Source of the DNA: Tannerella sp.
Lineage (GTDB): Bacteria; Bacteroidota; Bacteroidia; Bacteroidales; Tannerellaceae
Length of the DNA: 64,000 bases
NCBI GenBank assembly: GCA_031277335.1
Contig: JAITMM010000237.1
Span: 40,298 to 104,297 of the forward strand
Reading direction: 5' to 3'
A model generated the notes under the pieces. The model saw only the letters and a program-made list of their open reading frames with translations. It did not search any database and was not told where the DNA came from. Shown here in pieces: positions 11,490 through 41,000 of this stretch. Position numbers and translations under genes: made by a program. How positions within the stretch are numbered: position 1 is the first letter of the stretch; each line of letters begins with the position of its first letter.

Positions 11490-11686
11490 GCGGAAGGCTA
11501 AGGCAAAGGCGAAAGGTGAAAGGCGAAGTGTTTAGTGTTTAGAGTGTAGAGTTCAATTGAACTTGGCACATTAAACTTTAAACTTTGAACATCGAACCTT
11601 GAATTTTTAATTCGTAATTGTCAATTATTCTGTTGTTTCCAAAGTGTTAAGTTATTGATTTTGAACCCAATTAAAATATATTGAAA
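11490..11686 (+). repeat. Intergenic heptamer arrays
   Basis: AGGC-type, GTKTAGW, AACYTTG and AATTGTC-type units lead to an AT-rich stretch before the capsid ATG. The RRYTAAAC octamers seen in most gaps are absent here. There is no clear promoter. Confidence 0.65.
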
Positions 11687-14345
11687 ATGAGTTTAGGAAA
11701 ATTTCAAATGCGGGACGCAACGTCCTGAAAAGGTTTGACCACGTCGAACCACTTGAATGCTGTTTACAGGACAAGTCCACAGCAAGCAACACAGACTTAT
11801 ATCCGTCTGTTGGAACATAACTATGGCAGGAGTATGGAGAGTTTCCTGATGAGATTCCCCATCAAATACTTTGAAAACGATGAGGACATGGTGTGAAAAC
11901 TGATCGGCAGCGCCAGAAAAAACATACCTTTATATGAAGCGCGGGACTGCGACGGTAACGTTATTGGCGTAAACGATATGGCAGGAATAAACACGGAACC
12001 GTTCTATCTTGTATTTCAGGAAGATTACTTTGCGGACGGCAATTGGCTCGTAGGAGAATTGAATGAGGAATATCTGCTTATTGTTAAGGATGATCCAAAA
12101 ATTGAAGGTTCGCTTTACGTCTATCAGGTAGAATTGGCAGGCGGTAACGTTAGCGGTATGCCGGGTAGTGAATTGCAACCGGGCAAGAGATTCTCGGATG
12201 AATATTCGGCAGTCGAGAAAGATTTATCAAGAAAAGTTGGCGATAGAATGGAATGTCGCCTCGCAGCGTAATCTGCGATAAATAAACTGGGCAAAAACGG
12301 TGGAGTTCAAAAAGAGTTTTGATAATACCGTGCTAACTTGCCACTAACGATGGCAAGTAGTGTAGAGAGTAGAACATGAGGATAAGATAGTAAAAGATGA
12401 AAGGATATATCTATAAAATTACCAATAAGGTAAATGGAACGTCCTATATAGGACAAACAAGATATACAGTAGAATTTCGATGGAAACAGCATTGATTTAA
12501 AAAAGATGACAATACTAAATTCCATAATGCCATAAAATATTACGGCGTCGAGAATTTCACTGTGGAAACATTAGAAGAATGTAATGTTGATGATTTGGAC
12601 AGCAGAGAGATTTTCTATATTGCTAAATACAATACTTTTGAAAAAGGGTATAATTTAACAATAGGAGGAGGAGGAAAACGCAAGATAATTTCAGACAGTC
12701 AGTATGAAGAAATAGAAGGTTTGTATTTATCAGGTTTTACAACCTATAAAATCGCTGCTTTATTTAGAGTTGATAAGGCAACAATAACCAAGATATTAAA
12801 AGTCATGGGGGTTAAGATGCGCAGCGATAAAATACAAATGAATCATCAAGAATTTCTGGAACTGGTTAGTGATTATAAAAGTGGCTATTCATTAAGAGAA
12901 TTAGCCAAAAGATATGATTGCTCTGCACCCGGATTAAAAGAATACTTAAAAAGAAAAGGTGTTGATATTCAAGAAAAGTATTCAATTCTGGAAGATGAAG
13001 AATCTCAACAGGCTCTAATAAAAGATTATTTGGATAAAGATGTAATGACAAAAGACATTTTTGAAAAATATCATGTAAGTTGAGCAACATTCTATAAAAT
13101 TCTTTCATTGCATGGTATAAGTAAAAGTCATAGAAAACATTTTAAACTTACCGAAAAAGAATGTTTGGAAGCAATATCATTATTCAATTCAGGAATGATG
13201 ATACCCAATATAGCAAGAAGGTTTAAGGTTGATAAAACGACCATATATTCAATGTTTAAAAGATACCATGTTAACTATCTGACAGTATAATTGTTCCAAG
13301 AGTGTCCACTCCCTATTATTAAGTTAAGGGAGAAAATGTACTCCAAAACACTTCGTAAGAAGTTCGCAGGATAAAGAGCCTGCGATGAAAAGTTTAGATT
13401 CGATTTAGTGCACCTATCACTATGCGTAACGAATTTTCGCGCATTCGTCTGCAACACAAAGTTCCGGGCAGGATGCTGAATCGCAGAGTTGAATGCGGAA
13501 TCCCCTGTAAGGATCCGAAAACGAATCAGGTAAAAGTAGAGACGCTGTGGATGTATCACGTCGAATGGGTTTTTGAACAGCAATTTTCGCAGGACAAGAA
13601 CTATTGTTTGATGTATGCACGTTCCAATAGAAGTTCCAATGGGGAAGTGAGAAACTACGGTAAATCGGGTAATATCCTTTCTACCGGTAGCGGTATCCGC
13701 GAACAGATGTCGGTAGGTCATGTTACCTACTATAATCAGTTCAGTTTGAAGATGTTGGAGAACGCCTTGTTTGAATTGAGCACGGGAGTGCTGGGATATA
13801 ACATGCGTAATTTCGTTCTGGAAACGGGCGAACGCGGAGCTGCGAAGTTCAGCGAAGAAGCGCTGAAAACTACTTCCGGATGGCAGTCGAATATTTGGAT
13901 GGATGCTGAACGCCTGGGTATGGTAGGCAAGACAACTTCCGAACTGTCGAGCAACGCTTTAAAAGCGGGCTTCCAGTTTACGGAGTTTCTGTTTGCCAAT
14001 AACATTCGCGTTACCATTAAGGTGAATCCGTTCTATGATGATGTGGTGAGAAATAAACTCATCCATCCGGTCTTCGGAGGGCCTGCGGAATCTTACCGCT
14101 ACGATATTTACTATATCGGAAACACGGACGAACCGAACATTCAATTGTGCAAGATCAACGGTATGGAAGAGCAAAGAGGTTTCCAAGCCGGGCCATTTGG
14201 CAATCCGTTCACGGGCGAAGCGAACACGAATTTTGCTTCCTTTGACGAGGATGCGGCTGTAATCCATAAGATGGCTACGTTGGGTGCTATTGTGCTTGAC
14301 CCGCTGCGGACGATGAGCTTTATTCCTTCGGTGTTGGCGGCTTAG
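11687..14345 (+). CDS. crAss-like major capsid protein, split by a group I intron
   Basis: Exon 1 is 11687-12244 (186 codons) and exon 2 is 13398-14345 (315 codons plus TAG), joining to a 501-aa protein of the usual size for crAss-like capsid proteins (HK97 fold). The N-terminus (MSLGKFQMRDATSW) and the stretch MRNEFSRIR..HKVPGRML are hallmark sequences of this family. Exon 1 uses TGA for Trp. Splice sites were set from base pairing: GGCGAT at the end of exon 1 pairs with GTCGCC in the intron, including the expected U.G pair, and ATTC at the start of exon 2 pairs with GAAT. The joined frame reads KVGD-IRFSAPITMRNEF. A strong terminator follows the gene. Confidence 0.9.
12245..13397 (+). other. 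Group I self-splicing intron in the capsid gene
   Basis: This 1153-base insertion puts exon 2 in a different frame. Seen directly: P1 (GGCGAT/GTCGCC with U.G at the 5' splice site), P10 (GAAT with ATTC of exon 2), a terminal G, and a core segment AATACCGTGCTAACTTG that closely resembles the conserved core of the T4 td intron. Near the 3' end, TCGCAGG...CCTGCGA forms another hairpin. Established knowledge: group I introns splice with guanosine and often carry a homing endonuclease gene, as here. Confidence 0.85.
12397..13290 (+). CDS. GIY-YIG homing endonuclease in the capsid intron
   Basis: This 297-aa protein opens with GYIYKITN...SYIGQT, the GIY-YIG nuclease signature, followed by FRWKQH. 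KYYGVENFTVE and DLDSREIFYIAKYNT are the later motifs of the domain, including the catalytic Glu region. The remainder has four helix-turn-helix-like units (for example TYKIAALFRVDKATITKIL and MIPNIARRFKVDKTTIYSMF) that would recognise DNA. Two in-frame TGAs encode Trp, so the gene is adapted to this genetic code. It would cut intron-less capsid alleles to spread the intron. It ends in TAA 107 bases before the 3' splice site. Confidence 0.9.
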
Positions 14346-18701: not shown

Positions 18702-21296
18702 ATGGAGAATTTGGGAAAGGCGAATATTATCAATGCGTTGAATCTGTACGATTATCTGGCTTTGTACGGATTTGACAAGTATCATACCAAGGATGACTTG
18801 ATTGTCCTTGCGATGATTAATGATTTTTTGTCGAATAACTGCCATTACAATATCCTGGATGATTGTCTATACCGTAAATTGCTTTGTATCGTTGAAAAAA
18901 TTATGAACGGTAATCCTATGATGAAGTATTGCCGTATCTTCTTTACCGAATATAAAAATCTGGACGGTTCTCAAAATATACGCGATTATCAGAAAGTTAA
19001 GGATGAAACGGGTATTGATTATTCGATACCGGCGTTTAAATACACGATAGATCAAAGTCCCCCAGCCCAAATCCCTTCTCAAGGGGGAGGCGTGGTACTT
19101 GACGGTTCGCCAACGGGATTTTATCAGGTAGGGAAAAAGATTGTAATTCCTACGGTTGTTCCAATTGCTACGGGTTATACTTTTGATTATTGATTGCGGA
19201 ATGATACGGGATTGCCTGTTTCGGGCAGTTTTGTTATGCCGGAAAATGATGTTACCGTTGAAGCGCAATGGATTGCTAATTCCTATACATTGACGATAGA
19301 CTTGAATGGGGGAAGCCCCTCCTCTTCCCCCCAAGGGGGGACTCCTGACGGGGTATATGCTTACGGGACGGTTATTGAATTGATGAATCCCGATCCTGTC
19401 CGGACTAATTATACGTTTGCGGGTTGGATACGGTTGGATACAAATGAGAATGTTACGGCATCGTTTATCATGCCTGCTTCCGATTTGACGTTGCAGGCGC
19501 AATGAATTGAGAATCAGAAATATTTATATAAGATAGATTTAAGCGGAGGCACAGGCAGTTCGGGCGGAACGGATCCCGGTAATTACTATGAGGGAACTAC
19601 CATTAGTTTACCTTCGGTTTCTCCTTCCAAGGCGGAGTATAACTTTACCGGTTGGAAGAGAAGTGATACAAATACGGCTGTCAGCGGCAGTTTTGTAATG
19701 CCTGACAATGACGTTACCATTATTGCACAGTGGGAACTGATTCCTAAATATGCTTTCAGCATAGATTTGAATAGCGGTTCGGGTGGTTTGGGCGGTACTG
19801 TTCCGGGAAACTACTATGCGGGAACTGTTATTGATTTGATGACAACAAATCCTTCGCGTACCGGTTATATTTTTGACGGTTGGATACGCTTGGACACGAA
19901 TCAGGCTGTAACAGGTTCTTTTGCCATGCCTGCCAATAATATTGTTTTGCAAGCACAATGGGAGTTGGCTCCGGTTACGGTTACGTTTAACGGTAATGGC
20001 GGCGTTTTACAGTCGGGACAGGAACAGGTTACTGTACCTTATGGAACGTTGTGGATAGATGTGGCAAAACCTTCGTATAAGAGACCTCAACTGGCGTCGC
20101 AGCAAGGCGGATTTACGTATATAAAAGACGATGACAGTACACTTGTCAATGATACGGATATTCTTACGGCAGATATTACGGTATATGCTTCATTTACAGT
20201 CATAGAAATAGGCGTGATTACGCATGACGGAGAGATACTTTCGGCGCAGGGGTGGATCGAGAAGTATGGAGTGAATTTATATTCGATTTACGATTCGGGA
20301 AGTGGAAATTTGCGTGTATTTTTCAAAAATGACGACGACAGTTTAAAAGATCATCTTGTCGAATATATTTATTTTAAGGACGGCGATTTTGCGTTCGGTA
20401 TTGCGTGCGATCATCTGGATGACGGTTCGAGCCGAAACATGCTTTCGGGCGGAACCGATTTTTTCAACATGCAGCAAGTATTGACGTCTCCTGACTCGGT
20501 ACTGAATGGCAAAGCCTATCAGATTTCAGCGTTTATCAATCAGCAGGGAATAGGGATTGGCGGTTACAATAGCGGTATTTATCCGCGGATGTTGGATCCG
20601 ATGATGACTTTTGCAGATGCACTGCAGTTTACACAGACGGGCGTCAATGAGGCGGCGGTTGAAGCGATTCTAAACAATAAAAACGGGAAACAACTGACGG
20701 CGGAGATTATCGCCGTGGGACAAAGCACGGAACTTACCGGTATGCAGACGTGGGCAATTGATACTCCGGCTTTGCAGAATGAGAAGTTTTATGTGGGCAC
20801 GCCTTACGAGTATAGTATCCTGTCTAAAAATCTTCCGCGTTTGTGGGATTTGATAGACATTCTGGATAATTGAGGCAGTACGGCATTTCCAAATCCCAAT
20901 GTTCCGGGAGCGTATATACCTTTCGAGGATCCACGCCAGACACCGGAGCCTACATATAAGCAATGGATTCCCTATACGTATTTTGCAGGCTCTTATGCGG
21001 TGGGATTTTATCCCGGTGATGGCAAGGTCTGTAGTCAGGGATTTCAACGGATTGACCGGAATCAAATTATTTGGAGTATGAATAACTTTTACACTACATC
21101 CATACCTCTTGTTACCGGATATGTGAGCAATACACAGGGAAACGAGGATTATGCGAATTGCAATCTGATACACATGGATATTTTGAACAATCAGTTATTG
21201 GACGGCGAAGGAAAGTTTGAACGGAGTAATGGAGGTTTGGGCAGGGCTATTCCGTTGATTGATGTTATGGCTTTGTTTTTGGAACGGGGTTATTAG
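18702..21296 (+). CDS. Adhesin-like fibre protein with InlB/Listeria-Bacteroides repeats
   Basis: This 864-aa protein is read through three TGAs. Residues 1-130 form an alpha-helical head that may attach to the virion. Residues ~130-430 hold at least four repeats of the Flg_new/InlB B-repeat type (Y.F.GW, SFVMP..DVT, AQW). A C-terminal ~400-residue domain follows, beta-rich with FFKNDDDSLKDHLVEY and a final ALFLERGY. Such repeats form stalks in surface adhesins, so a host-binding tail protein is likely. Two palindromic GC-rich elements (19058 and 19315) encode PPAQIPSQGGG and SSSPQGGTP insertions inside the repeats. TGA often encodes the conserved W of these repeats. Confidence 0.8.
19058..19090 (+). 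repeat. Palindromic element (family B) inside the adhesin gene
   Basis: TCCCCCAGCCC...CAAGGGGGAGG has imperfect inverted arms. It encodes a proline/glycine linker at the start of the first InlB repeat. Related copies lie at 19316, 22028 and 33471. Confidence 0.65.
19316..19342 (+). repeat. Palindromic element (family B) inside the adhesin gene
   Basis: CCCCTCCTCTTCCCCCCAAGGGGGG has inverted CCCCC/GGGGG arms. It lies in frame within an InlB repeat loop (SPSSSPQGGTP). Confidence 0.6.
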
Positions 21297-33202: not shown

Positions 33203-36200
33203 ATGAGAAAACAAGCAGCGTTTAATAATATTAATGGAATGAATCAGGATGTAAGTATCTCGAAGTTCAATCCCAAAATGATTTACGAAGGAATGAATAT
33301 TCGTATCAATTCTTCGGAGGATGGTACTTTGTTTTCCATTACGAATGAGAAGGGTAACAAAAAGTGTATTATCTGGAATTTTGACCGTACACAGACTGTT
33401 GAACTGAATTATGTGGTCGGGCATTGCGTGCTGAATGACTGGCTGGTTATTTTTGATACGACCTTTCAAAGTTCTCCTAATTCTCCTCAAGGGGGAACCG
33501 GAGACGAGCCACGGGTGGATCGGATTTTGAGGTTGGAAGGGATTAATGACTATGAGTTTACGGCTTATGTATTATATGAAAGTGACGGTTCCGATACGGG
33601 ACTTAATTTTCGGGCTTCGGAACTGATAGAGTGTTTTGGATTGTATGAATCTGATGACAATCAGAAAGTGTATTTCTGCGACCGGAATAATCCAATCCGT
33701 TTCATCAATATTATGAAAGATGTTACGGAAGTAGATAGTAACGGACAGTTGGTTTATGATTCAGACCGCGTGCGTAACAACTTGAATTTTTGTCCGGTTT
33801 TGAAGTTGGAAGAGACGTATGACATTCAAAAACGCAATTATGGCGGTACGTTTCATTCCGGCGTTATCCAATATGCTTTCAGTTATTGGAATCTGAACGG
33901 GCAGGAAACGCACATTCACTATGTTACGCCACTTTATTATATTTCTTTTGAGGATAGAGCCGGCAGTCCGGAACAGACTTGCAGCAACAGTTTCCGTATC
34001 GAGATAGACCATCTTGATTCCAATTTTGATTACTTGCGCATTTACTGTATCCACCGGACTACGGAAGACGCGATGCCCAATGCCCGTATTGTGAGCGATA
34101 TATATTTGCGGGATGAGGATGACAATCCCTTGACTTTTGCCGATATTATTGATGACGGGATAATTGGACGGACATTTGATTCCAATCTGTTGCCTGTATT
34201 GGGTGGAGACGAGATATTCGCGGAGACGATGGCGACAAAAGAGGGTGTTTTGTTTGCGGGAAATATTCGCATGTTTAATGAAAATTTGGAAGCGGTCAAG
34301 GATATTATCCGCAATAATGATCCGGATAATCCTGTATTCAGAGTTGAAATTATCCGGAGCGGAGAAGAGAAGGACGCTCAAGGAAATAATCTTTTTGAAG
34401 ACGTGGAAATCTTCAATGAAGATATCAAGAATCCCCAGAATGATTATTACATGTATTATCCCTATACGTTAAACAAACCCAGCGATACCGTAAAGCATTG
34501 AAAATTCAAGGAGACGTACCGGCTTGGATTGCAATTTCAGCACGAAAACGGATTATGAAGTTCATCCGTATTTTTATCGGATATTGTTATTGACAAGCCC
34601 ATGAGTGTATGGGGGAAAAATGATTCCGTTACCGGACGTCTGATCGGTTCCATTATCCGTTACAACCGTATAAAAGTGGAATTGACACAGACTTTATTAA
34701 ATGCCATACCTGCATTTTATAAAAAGGTCAGGCTGGTTTATGTTAAAATGACACCTGACATGCGGACTGTCATCACACAAGGTATATTGATGAATACCCT
34801 TTACAGAAACGGCGCCCGTGAATCCAATTCTCCCTTTGCAGTTCCTGACTGATATATCAGACCGAACAGAGAATTGTGCATCAATTACGCATACAATACA
34901 AGCAATATTGGTGATATTTTAGATCCGTCAGTCGAACCGGCATTGCCAATCATATCAACTTCTGCCCTGTTAAACATGATGTACAGTAAATGGCTTGGAA
35001 CCACGAACATTTTCAGTCAAAATTTATATCCATTGCCATCGTTGCATGGAATGCCGACTGCCCTGCGTGATAGCATGGGATATCCTCTTCTGTATATGTC
35101 CAATTCCGAAACATGACAGTCCAAAATGTTTACCTGACCTTCCATGCCTGCTATTGATATTAAGACAAGGTTAAGAAACAGCACGGAAATATCGAAATTT
35201 TTCCAGTACACGGGTAGTGCAGATACAAGTAACGACATCATATATTACAATAATTCCTATTATACAAACGATTATTTGAGACATGATCCCTGGTATAGCA
35301 ATTTCAATATCCGTTACAGTTCTCTCGAATACGAAACGTATCGTGGCGGATTCAATGCAACCGGCGGTATTGAATATCATAATGAACACAGTTTGGAAAA
35401 AGATACGGATTGAGTGATAGACAAGGGTATTATTAACATGTTCAGTCCCGAAATCATGTATGATCCGAACTTTGCCAATATAGATTTGTCAAATACCGGC
35501 TTGCGATTCAGAATGGCCGCCATGATAACTCACCAGTCCTGAAATCAAAAAGCAAATGTAAACGGGTCGCCCGGTCTTGAATCTTTTCTTTCCTGACTGA
35601 TTATGCGCAGAAATGAACCCTATAAATCATTTAATTACAGTTACAATCAATCTTCGATGCCGCTCGCGGACTATTTTCCCAAAAGAATATACCGTATATT
35701 TACAGATGGAACCGATATAATCGAGCGATCCGAAGAGGCAACATACAGCGCCTTATGACATGCTCAAAATTCATATACCGTTAATACAAATCTCGATCCG
35801 AGCGTTCCCGGCGCCGTTTGCAATTCGCAGGATACTTCATTATGATATTCGTCTGCATTTGCCATGACTTTATATCGAAAGGAATCTGTCATTGATTGGG
35901 GAAATAACCGGATAACCGCGGAAAACATATCGCCGGAAATATCCATTTATACTCCCAAATATATGGGATTGACGGATGACAAATATATTGTCTATAAAGG
36001 TTCGGATATTCACAAGAGACCATTCAATTATGGACGGGAAGTTTTCGAGATTATTTCTACCATGTCCGATAATGGAACACATGGGGAAGGCGATAATCCC
36101 GTAATGGTTTATCCCGTGAAATACAGAACCAACAACCATTTGGTTATGGAACTGAAATATATGGCGCGTCCCAAGGATAAACTTGTCCGGGATCATGTCA

Positions 36201-37969
36201 TCCTGCCTGAATTTGCTTCCAAATCCGAAACGACATATCCTGTTTACATGGAATATATTGATAAAAAGGAAGATACGTTGCATACGTCCATCATTCAACC
36301 GGAATATTATTTTCAAAATCCGGACAATTCCAATAAGGAAGTAACGATGGATGATATACAAGGCAGCATCATGGAATTAGACCTTGCCAATTATCCGGAA
36401 AATAACGGACACTGGATTCTGAAAAGCGGATATCCGTATGTATGAATAGCCGATTTGGTGCGTACCAATGAAACAAACCCGGACGGTACTTTCAATACTT
36501 ACAATCAGTATGGCAACAATACGGAAGAAAATCTGATGAATCACTTATGGATACCGGCAGGAGAGAAAAGGGATATTGGAGATATGGATGTCAATACAGG
36601 CGTTTTAACATTGTTCGGAAGCGAAGGAGATACATTTATTCAACGGTTTGACTTATTGAAAACTGCTCCGTTCGATACAGACAGCGAAGGAACGGAAGAG
36701 AATAACAGCGACTGGAACAAATTGTGGGTTGGCATATCGGTATGGATAGAATCGTTTATCAATATGGATGGCCGCTATGACAACAAGCGCGGAATGACGA
36801 ATCTTTACGATACGAAATTTGAAACATTTACGGCTCTCAATCCGGTTTATAGCCAAAAAAATAATTTCTTCGAGTATAATACGCTCAATACAAATTTATT
36901 GAATGATTATGAGGCAAAAAGTACTTTTGCATGGTCGTCTCCGAAAACGGTTAATGAATTGATAGACAGTTGAACAAGTATGTATTTGACAAATTCACAT
37001 ACCGTACTTAGCGATTACGGGAATATCAACAAACTGATTAATTTTAATAATGAAATTATCGGTTTTCAGGACAAGAACATATTCAGGGTACTGTACAATT
37101 CACGTGTGCAGGTTCCGGCTTCGGACGGATTGCCCATCGAACTGATGCAGGGTGTGAAAGTACCGGAGGTCAATTACATCAATTCCCTTTCCGGAACTAC
37201 CAACAAATGATCTGTCTTGAATACGGAAACGGGTTTATGGTTTATGGATACACATAATCGCAGTATCAATGTTTTGTCGCAGGACTATACGGATATTACG
37301 GAACAGTTGGGCATGTCAAGTTGGGCAAAGAGAAATATTTCGGACTTGTTAAAATACAGTCCGGCTATCAATGATTCCTACATGGGACATTATGACCAGA
37401 TAAGAGGCGATATATATTATTCAAGCAGCAGAAATAGTCTGTCATTCAGCGAACGGTTGAAACAGTATGAATCGTTTTTCAGTTATGAAAATGTGATTGG
37501 AGGAACAAACTATCGGAACAGATATTATATGTTAGCCCCCTCCAACGAAAAGACTTCAACGGATTTGTGATTGCATCACGGAGGTAAAACCGGCGAGTAT
37601 TTTGGAGAGGTAAAGGATTCATATATAGAATATTATGTAAATCCGGAATATCCTTTTGATAAAGTATTTGACAATATATCGTATCGTGGAGACGTGTTTG
37701 ACACGACCGGCGATTATCTGCCAAAGGAAACTTTTGAAAAAATGATTGTGTCGAACGAATTTCAGACGGGAGAGCGGTTGTTGAAGGGAGTAACGGGTAC
37801 GTCGGACTGGCGCGCCAAGAAATATCGGATTTGGGAGTTTGCGTTTCCGCGACAGATTAGTTCGCTGAACAGGATTCGGAATCCGTGGGTGAAATTGAAA
37901 TTGCTGTTTAACAATGAGCATGGATATTCATTTGTCTTGCATGACCTTGTTGTTAAGTACAGTGTTTAG
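33203..37969 (+). CDS. Large tail tube/muzzle-type protein
   Basis: This is one frame of 1588 aa, read through about fourteen TGAs between 34499 and 37570. The first 430 and last 130 codons have none. The N-terminus (QAAFNNINGMNQDVSISKFNPKMIYEGMNIRI) is a conserved opening in crAss-like phages of the large tail protein that forms the muzzle of the short tail. The sequence is beta-rich, with repeated Y.LDI and GTDI segments that suggest propeller-like modules. No signal peptide or membrane segment is seen. It is preceded by connector genes and followed by the cargo genes. A family B palindromic element is inserted near codon 90 (NSPQGGTGDE). Confidence 0.75.
33471..33497 (+). repeat. Palindromic element (family B) inside the tube/muzzle gene
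   Basis: GTTCTCCTAATTCTCCTCAAGGGGGAACC has GGTTC-type outer arms and encodes a Pro/Gly insertion. Confidence 0.5.
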
Positions 37970-38040
37970 AGTGTAGTTGTGTAATTGTTTAGTTGATAAT
38001 TGACAATTATTTTGGATTATAATTAAAAGATTGGTATATG

Positions 38041-41000
38041 GCAGAGTTAAAGAAAATAAGAAGATATTATACTCCGGGTTATTTTACTCCGAGACTGTTT
38101 GCTTCGGGTGGTCAGGCAGGCGGTTACGGATATTATTACGGGAATAACGCCGGTATCGGAAATACGGGCAGTAATGTATCGGGTGGCGCTTCGGGAGGCG
38201 GCTCTTTCATGTCTAATTTCGGATCGAATTTTGGCAGTATTGGAAGTGCTGCTATGGGTACAATCGGTCAATGGACTGATGCTGCCGATATTAATGCAGA
38301 ACAGCAGATCGGCACTCAATCTCTTGAAGATATACGGAATGCTAAAAGTAAAGACCAGTTATATGGAAATTCCATAGATGCAAGTACCATTCACTTTAAA
38401 CGTCCGGGTTTGGGAGCTTCCTTGATGGAGGGTACAATGTATGGCGTTCAGGGTGGTACGGCTATATCTCCGGGGTGAGGTTGCGTATGTGCAGGTACAA
38501 TAGTTTATACTAAAGATGGACAATGTAAAAAAATAGAAGATTTATGTAAAGAAGACGGTATTCTTGGTTTTTCTGACGGGGAAATTATTCCACAGAATAT
38601 TATACAGATGCAGAAACCCGGATATAAAGAATGTGTTAAAATAGAAGCCGAATCCGGTTTGATTTTGGAATGTAGCGCAGACCATCCTATTATGTGCAGT
38701 AATTCAGATAATAACAAATGGTATTGAAAGGAAGCAAAAGACATTTTACCCAATGAAAAAATTGCTCATCTTGACATGTCTTTCGTATTCGGAGAAAAAG
38801 ATATTAATTGAAGAATTGTTGAATCTGTAACGCCTATCGGAGTCAAACAAATATATAATTTGGAAGCATCAGATTCCCATACCTATATTGCCAATAACAT
38901 TGTTACACATAATACTCTGATAGGAGGAGCTGCGGGATTCCTTTCGGGTTTGTTTTCCAACCAATATGCGAATCGCCGTATTGACGGATATGAAAGACAA
39001 TTGAAACGCAACATCGGTGAAATGACCAATAATCAAAACCTGTATTTGACAAATAAAGATATGGGACATTCTTTAAGTAATCAGATTGCTTTGGGCGGGT
39101 GATTGAATAACGGATATAATCAAAGCAAAGAAGCAAATAAAACAGAATATGCTATGGGTGGATTGATGAAAGGATACGGTATGAATCCTCCGGCGTGGTA
39201 TCCCAATACCTTCGGAGCGGGAGGAACACATGAAGAAATGTCCGAGAAATGAGGCGTTGAAGGAATATTGCAGGGATATGACGCCAATGGCGCTCCCAAT
39301 CTGGTGGAAGAGAATGAGGTAAAATGGAATGATTATATCTTCTCGAACCGTTTAGTAATTCCCAAAGGCGTTAAGGATGCGGCATTGCCGACCAATATAC
39401 AGGATAAGACGTTTGCAGAAGCGGCACAAGTATTGTCTGCGGATACGGAAGAAAGACCTTTCGATCCTGTTGCCAAACGGGGACTGGAAGTGATGCTTGG
39501 AAGACTGGCTCAATTGCAGGAGGTTGTTCGGATGGAACAGGCGGAGATGGAGGCTAAGGCGGAGGCAGAGGCGGAAGATGAGGAAATGATGGAGGCGGCT
39601 CGATATTTTGCCTTTGGCGGTGATATACGCGATAGCGATGAGTATAAGTTAAGGATACAGTCTTTGTTGGACAGGAACAAGCGTGAATGGCAACGGTATA
39701 AGAAACAGTATCCCGATTCCGACGATGAGGAAGTGGCTCGCTATCTGTATCGGAGAGATAACCGATGGAATCCGTTGAATACGGAATTTGTTTCGGGCGA
39801 CAAGCGGCTTCAACAGTTTGTCAATGAGGAGGCTGCGCGAAATGGCGTACCGGCAAGTGTACTGTACAATCAAATATCCAATTCAGGTATGATAGACCGT
39901 CATGTGGCTGCCGTTAAGGATGGCTGACCGTTGGTTGATGAAAAGACTTCCTTGATTGATTACAAGCCGGGTGATTATAATGATTTTCGCAGTGAAATAT
40001 CGAATATTGCACAAGGTATTGCGGTTCAGAAAAATGAATTGCAGCAATTGGGATTGAAAGGTACAGCGAAGGAATTGAATGCGGCGTATAATCTGGGCGT
40101 TGATCATCCGGATTTGTTGAGCGGTCGCATTGACGGATACGAGATTGGAGATAAATGGGATGGATTTGTTTTTCCGGTTTCCAATTCAAAGTCGGGAGTT
40201 CAAAGTTCAAAGTTCAAGATTCAAGGTTCGATGGATAATCTGTATGCCAAGGGCGGGGATATTAAAATCAATCCGAAGAACAAAGGACTGTTTACTGCTG
40301 CCGCCAAGAGAGCGGGTATGGGCGTTCAGGAGTATGCACGCCATATTCTTGCCAACAAGGAACGGTATAGTCCTACCATGCGTAAAAGGGCTAACTTTGC
40401 CAGGAACTTTGGCGGCAGTCATGCGGATGGAGGGTCTTTAATTGACAATGGACAATTGACAATTGATAATGAGAGTCTTGGAAATATTTTTGCAGGAGGC
40501 GGTTATGCCGATTATAATGATTTTATGCGTTATGTTCAGGGAAGAATGAAGACCGGAAAAATGGCGGAAGGAATTTATCCGACATTATTGCCTACGTATC
40601 TGAAAAATAAGGGATATGCGGATTACTATGTATGAAAAGCACTTGAAAACACGGATACGAATCCTTTCAAAAACAGGGATGGCATTATGCAGGCACTGGC
40701 GCAGATAGGCAGTGTTGATCCTCAAACGACGTGACCGAACTACAGGAAAAAAGTTGTTCCCGATGTTGTCAGAGCCGGTAACATAAATCCTGTCATGCAG
40801 GAACAGGTTTTGAAGTCTTATCCGAATGACAGGGCGTATATACCGCCTTCCATTAATGTTCCCGTTGAAAAATACAATTATGATCCGGATATGATTTTCT
40901 TGGAGGAAACGGATACGGGTGAGAGAATTGTCGGGAAACTGGATGATAACGGGAATATTGTTTATAATGATGGACACACATATCCGGGAAGGAATCTGTT

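Follow-up and report, generated by a model that had tools for sequence, protein, structure and literature searches.

A predicted self-splicing mini-intein in the cargo protein 1 gene of a crAss-like phage

We propose that the cargo protein 1 gene of a crAss-like phage encodes a non-mobile mini-intein of class 1 type, which would splice itself out of the cargo protein precursor and which likely stems from the intein lineage at the G|TGG site of the phage packaging ATPase, TerL; we put the probability of this reading at about 0.88. The gene lies in a 64-kb stretch of DNA (the window), the final part of contig C190 (104,297 bp) of a bacterial metagenome-assembled genome, on which crAss-like phage genes encode a muzzle protein, cargo protein 1, ring protein 2 and a major capsid protein whose gene is split. 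The original prediction had placed a 144-residue intein at 38482-38913, coordinates that proved right to the base. Family models, the predicted fold, base composition and homologues in which the site is empty all support the assignment of this interval to a class-1-type mini-intein in a cargo protein (Table 1).

The interval codes for residues 149-292 of the open reading frame when TGA is read as Trp, and its frame reads in outline CVCAGTIVYTKDG...SADHP...THTYIANNIVTHN|T. It scored above the curated cut-offs of Pfam PF14890 (Intein_splicing, 41.8 bits against 35.8) and NCBIfam TIGR01445 (intein_Nterm, 26.2 bits against 24.5), and slightly below that of TIGR01443, a 24-residue model of the C-terminal block (14.3 bits against 15.6). 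Blocks A, B, F and G and a Thr at +1 had all been anticipated and were all found (Cys1, SADH, His143-Asn144 and Thr+1), with block F/G reading SHTYIANNIVTHN. The features of a class 1 intein are thus present, namely the block A Cys, a block B T/S-x-x-H and a C-terminal His-Asn followed by Thr; block B has Ser where Thr is usual, and the TerL relatives also have Ser. The expected lack of an endonuclease domain was borne out as well, since LAGLIDADG_3 (PF14528) was matched only in the contig's own TerL homologue, which carries about 150 extra residues with this domain at a point where the 144-residue cargo intein has none. A sequence search of solved structures gave a full-length match to the Mtu RecA mini-intein (E 3.6e-05). 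The AlphaFold model of the intein (mean pLDDT 89.4, pTM 0.85) predicts a HINT fold, and in Foldseek the model matched best the inteins of Ssp DnaB, Npu DnaB and Mtu RecA (TM about 0.76-0.80; E 7.5e-10 to 1e-8). These mini-inteins (PDB 1mi8, 4o1r and 2in0, respectively) resemble the cargo intein in fold and size but share only about 20% identity with it, and their hosts are replication or repair enzymes. The intein is also poorer in G and C than the rest of the gene (32.9% vs 43.1%), including at third codon positions (GC3 23.6% vs 40.0%).

Table 1. Features of the cargo protein 1 locus (window coordinates)
Feature	Position	Strand	Evidence
Muzzle protein gene, directly 5' of the cargo gene	33203..37969	+	PF25731, E 4.6e-184
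Crassvirales cargo protein 1 gene, relative of crAss001 gp45, 1,569 codons	38038..42747	+	PF25725; tblastn to crAss-like phages
N-extein, 148 residues, Gly-rich	38038..38481	+	Translation; alignment
5' half of the intein-interrupted Gly-rich motif, GTMYGVQGGTAISPGWG	38431..38481	+	Motif alignment
TGA as Trp147, extein position -2	38476..38478	+	TGA codon also in the L050 empty site
Mini-intein, 144 residues, no endonuclease domain	38482..38913	+	PF14890; TIGR01445; AlphaFold/Foldseek; boundary scan; GC
Cys1, first nucleophile, block A CVCAGT	38482..38484	+	Invariant in 16 aligned inteins
Block B SADH, Ser65..His68	38674..38685	+	D and H invariant in 16 aligned inteins
TGA as Trp, intein residue 82	38725..38727	+	Frame reading; codon count
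TGA as Trp, intein residue 110	38809..38811	+	Frame reading; codon count
Block G, penultimate His143 and terminal Asn144	38908..38913	+	Both invariant in 16 aligned inteins
Thr+1, C-extein residue 1	38914..38916	+	Thr also at empty sites of relatives
3' half of the Gly-rich motif, TLIGGAAGFLSGLFS	38914..38958	+	Motif alignment; equivalent to part of the transmembrane helix predicted for crAss001 gp45
crAss_CARG1 domain, residues 390-505	39205..39552	+	PF25725, E 1.6e-33

Removal of the intein rebuilt from its flanks a Gly-rich motif that is uninterrupted in the aligned cargo proteins of related crAss-like phages, in keeping with the Gly-rich N-terminal location given in the original prediction. 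Empty sites were seen in cr108_1 (AAAGPWG-ALAGGVAGL), crAss001 (VGGPIG-AIVGGVVGL) and Dulem virus 41 (PGIG-TAIGAAAG), and the nearest one in L050, a TGA-recoded phage from IMG/VR, which has ISPG-W-G-TLIGAAAG where the window has ISPG-W-G|TLIGGAAG. The joined DNA, TGAGGT|ACT, with W encoded by TGA, is identical in L050 and the window. Thr stands at +1 of the empty site in L050, three further relatives (L057, L087 and L088) and Dulem virus 41, so that the intein could use a residue already resident there. We scanned the boundaries with a motif HMM built from the uninterrupted sites of relatives, leaving out the window and L050. The predicted deletion was the best of 340 deletions of 144 residues and of neighbouring lengths near the junction, scoring 16.9 bits when spliced, compared to 15.5 bits for the next best (a shift by one residue) and 7.9 bits for the unspliced protein.

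The search of the same site in related phages, which had been suggested as a check, returned empty sites and no occupied one among the loci scanned. Neither the whole cargo protein nor the muzzle protein gave matches when used as a single query sequence against IMG/VR; cargo loci were recovered there only by an alignment search with the CARG1 domain, and none of these 80 loci had an intein in the cargo gene. Ten cargo regions of named phages and four bacterial-genome contigs scanned alongside gave no significant intein match. These four contigs came from a CARG1 scan of genome contigs, and 393 genomes from the order of the host, searched for CARG1, yielded one further relative, all without the intein; a single phage is known with an intein at this cargo site. 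The empty sites, the absence from relatives and the low GC together make up a pattern of sporadic insertion.

The host gene is a cargo protein 1 gene by its score with PF25725 (crAss_CARG1, 116 bits against a cut-off of 27), and the order of muzzle and cargo genes is that of crAss001 gp44-gp45. The cargo-type identity given in the original prediction therefore held on the PF25725 match, while its gene size, written as '1.5-kb-codon', is corrected to 1,569 codons. The gene is a single open frame only if TGA is read as Trp (13 TGA and 12 TGG codons), and a tRNA with anticodon TCA upstream on the same contig (L006:6804-6877) supports this reading. The first part of the contig (L005:1-8760, equal to C190 1-8760) starts with bacterial genes for an AraC regulator, an FGGY kinase and GidB, followed by a tRNA-like match on the minus strand (L005:7694-7759), which fits poorly in its 5' half and has by eye the anticodon UCU (Arg), and then by phage genes. 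Contig C190 thus looks as if a crAss-like prophage had integrated at a tRNA gene, or else as if it were chimeric; a search for PF00589 gave no integrase on it. The phage-like part also contains a tmRNA gene on the minus strand (L006:3449-3900, C190 23449-23900; Rfam 97.6 bits), with the tag ASQFRTFCEHIRKQDRAIIALPD by ARAGORN and an IS605 OrfB/TnpB gene nearby. Within the window, an 864-residue frame at 18702-21296, in which List_Bact_rpt (TIGR02543, E 2.7e-28) is repeated several times, is possibly a tail or adhesion protein.

An unbiased search with the intein alone gave MT835482 and Dulem virus 41 (PP511520) as the best matches among phage records. Both have their intein in TerL immediately ahead of TGG, and the same holds for the best matches in IMG/VR (L130-L137 and others). 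These G|TGG-site inteins share the fold family, a CVCAGT.. block A and Thr+1 with the cargo intein, at no more than 46% identity over the splicing domain. They differ in residing in a packaging ATPase, in being mostly 360-390 residues long and in usually keeping the endonuclease, whereas the cargo intein has 144 residues, no endonuclease and a virion gene as host. The contig's own TerL gene, outside the window, has two inteins. Intein 1 (C190:32737-33516, L006:12737-13516), with Ala at position 1, interrupts the P-loop region at KGK|S; intein 2 (C190:33946-34824, L006:13946-14824) is full-length, occupies the G|TGG site and keeps LAGLIDADG. A TerL with two mini-inteins, one in the P-loop just before TGKT, was seen in another IMG/VR phage (L099, IMGVR_UViG_3300031603_000257). 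In a small tree whose sampling was partly seeded with TerL inteins, the cargo intein was separated from other viral inteins together with those of the TerL G|TGG site (support 92.4/88), but stood beside and not within the G|TGG clade (support 89.9/92), so that descent from TerL is not proved. We rejected a recent copy of the contig's own TerL intein 2, which is 33% identical to the cargo intein, whereas the closest of the other TerL inteins reach 43-46%. The DNA around the cargo and TerL sites has little in common beyond a GGN|AC junction, and we therefore infer ectopic homing only tentatively. The likely history is that an intein of this phage lineage moved between genes and then lost its endonuclease, though which way it moved is not proved.

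Splicing of the cargo intein is predicted with high confidence. The intein would be translated within a cargo protein 1 precursor of 1,569 residues, fold as a HINT domain and excise itself. Cys1 would form a thioester with Gly148, attack of Thr+1 on the thioester would give the branched intermediate, and Asn144 would cyclise with the assistance of His143. The expected product is a cargo protein of 1,425 residues in which the Gly-rich hydrophobic segment runs on without a break (...ISPGWG-TLIGGAAGFLSG...), and the junction peptide expected in this product is ...ISPGWGTLIGGAAG... The intein itself would have come from the lineage at the phage TerL G|TGG site, its homing endonuclease lost, or never carried, at the new site.

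By alignment, the insertion point corresponds to residues 141|142 of crAss001 gp45. In the cryo-EM structure of crAss001, gp45 is cargo protein C1, parts of which occupy the tail barrel and others the capsid; a transmembrane helix is predicted at its residues 136-158, and it has been proposed to be ejected first and to help in channel formation (PMC10172136). The intein thus breaks the segment homologous to this helix. It is reasonable to expect that a folded 16-kDa HINT domain at this point would be incompatible with function, in which case splicing should be required, presumably before the cargo protein can pass the tail.

A domain of this fold might instead cleave at one or both of its ends without ligating, as bacterial intein-like domains do, so that cargo protein 1 would mature into two pieces, the N-terminal one 148 residues long. 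Solved structures of such domains have a HINT fold like that of the cargo intein, and a two-piece protein is imaginable given that parts of crAss001 gp45 are found in both tail and capsid (PMC10172136). We consider this improbable, because Cys1, the His-Asn pair and Thr+1 are all intact, the cut would fall in the N-terminal motif best conserved across the family, and the tail segments and capsid domains in crAss001 were taken as one continuous chain. Least probable of all is an artefact: the assembly may be chimeric, or the insertion may be dead and left unspliced in a gene that is decaying. The contig is metagenome-assembled and joins bacterial to phage genes; against this, a single frame of 1,569 codons with one genetic code runs across both junctions, the splice residues are typical of the family, the motif is restored exactly, and the intein itself uses the phage code with TGA as Trp.

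Splicing that is slowed or gated, by redox through the CVC motif or by assembly, would make the intein a timing device that joins the membrane-active segment late. The position within the segment homologous to a predicted transmembrane helix, the Cys3 beside Cys1 and the two internal TGA codons, which tie translation to the phage suppressor tRNA, would all fit such regulation. However, CVC is common to many TerL inteins and hence not specific to the cargo site, a single occupied site is known, and the hydropathy peak is no lower in the precursor (1.23 unspliced, 1.03 spliced). The simple idea that the intein keeps the hydrophobic peak apart is accordingly not supported, the absence of a drop being due to the hydrophobic end of the intein itself. 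We regard regulated splicing as about as improbable as cleavage alone. Retention of the intein as a maturation switch, with the Gly-rich membrane helix of the first-ejected cargo protein kept in two halves until splicing, seems to us an unlikely idea with slightly better odds; if it were true, the cargo protein could not enter the membrane of the producing cell before being packed into the tail. Self-splicing of a mini-intein, most likely of the TerL G|TGG-site lineage, is the reading that we prefer.

The original prediction had counted two self-splicing elements in structural genes of this phage, the second being an intron in the capsid gene. The intein half of this claim stands as a prediction of splicing, and the capsid gene is indeed split: positions 3-190 of the Crass_capsid profile matched at 11681-12271 and positions 199-495 at 13422-14345 in a different frame, with a GIY-YIG endonuclease frame at 12397-13290 between the halves. 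This arrangement fits an RNA intron, but the claim of a second self-splicing element is only partly borne out. Across the window no Rfam intron model reached its gathering score, a search over 12150-13550 gave no intron family up to E=5, and no group I core was found.

The insertion site in cargo protein 1 appears to be new, the type of element being known. Delta and Zeta crAss-like phages have been described with stop recoding, introns in the major capsid protein and inteins in TerL (Yutin et al. 2021, PMC7886860). In the main-text passages of that report TerL is the typical intein host of the Delta phages and a cargo protein 1 intein is not mentioned; nor is one described in the main-text passages of the other literature, although this does not prove its absence. 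TerL is also the commonest intein host gene in mycobacteriophages, where portal proteins (PORT) carry inteins too (PMC5050341). The portal inteins share a virion structural protein as host with the cargo intein, in another protein and another phage group, and inteins in structural genes are as such not new. It was therefore fair to remark, as the original prediction did, that this intein does not lie in a replication enzyme as is usual, with the qualification that inteins of packaging and virion proteins were already on record.

The finding adds an intein site in a phage protein outside the nucleic-acid enzymes, one that needs to pass through a narrow tail, which is why splicing should be essential and easily testable by virion proteomics. 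It also carries a caution for annotation, in that stop recoding together with inteins can hide the cargo genes of crAss-like phages. With the empty site in L050, the TerL lineage and the endonuclease-bearing homologue in TerL of the same contig, this locus may serve as a small case study of how an intein might pass to another gene and cease to be mobile.
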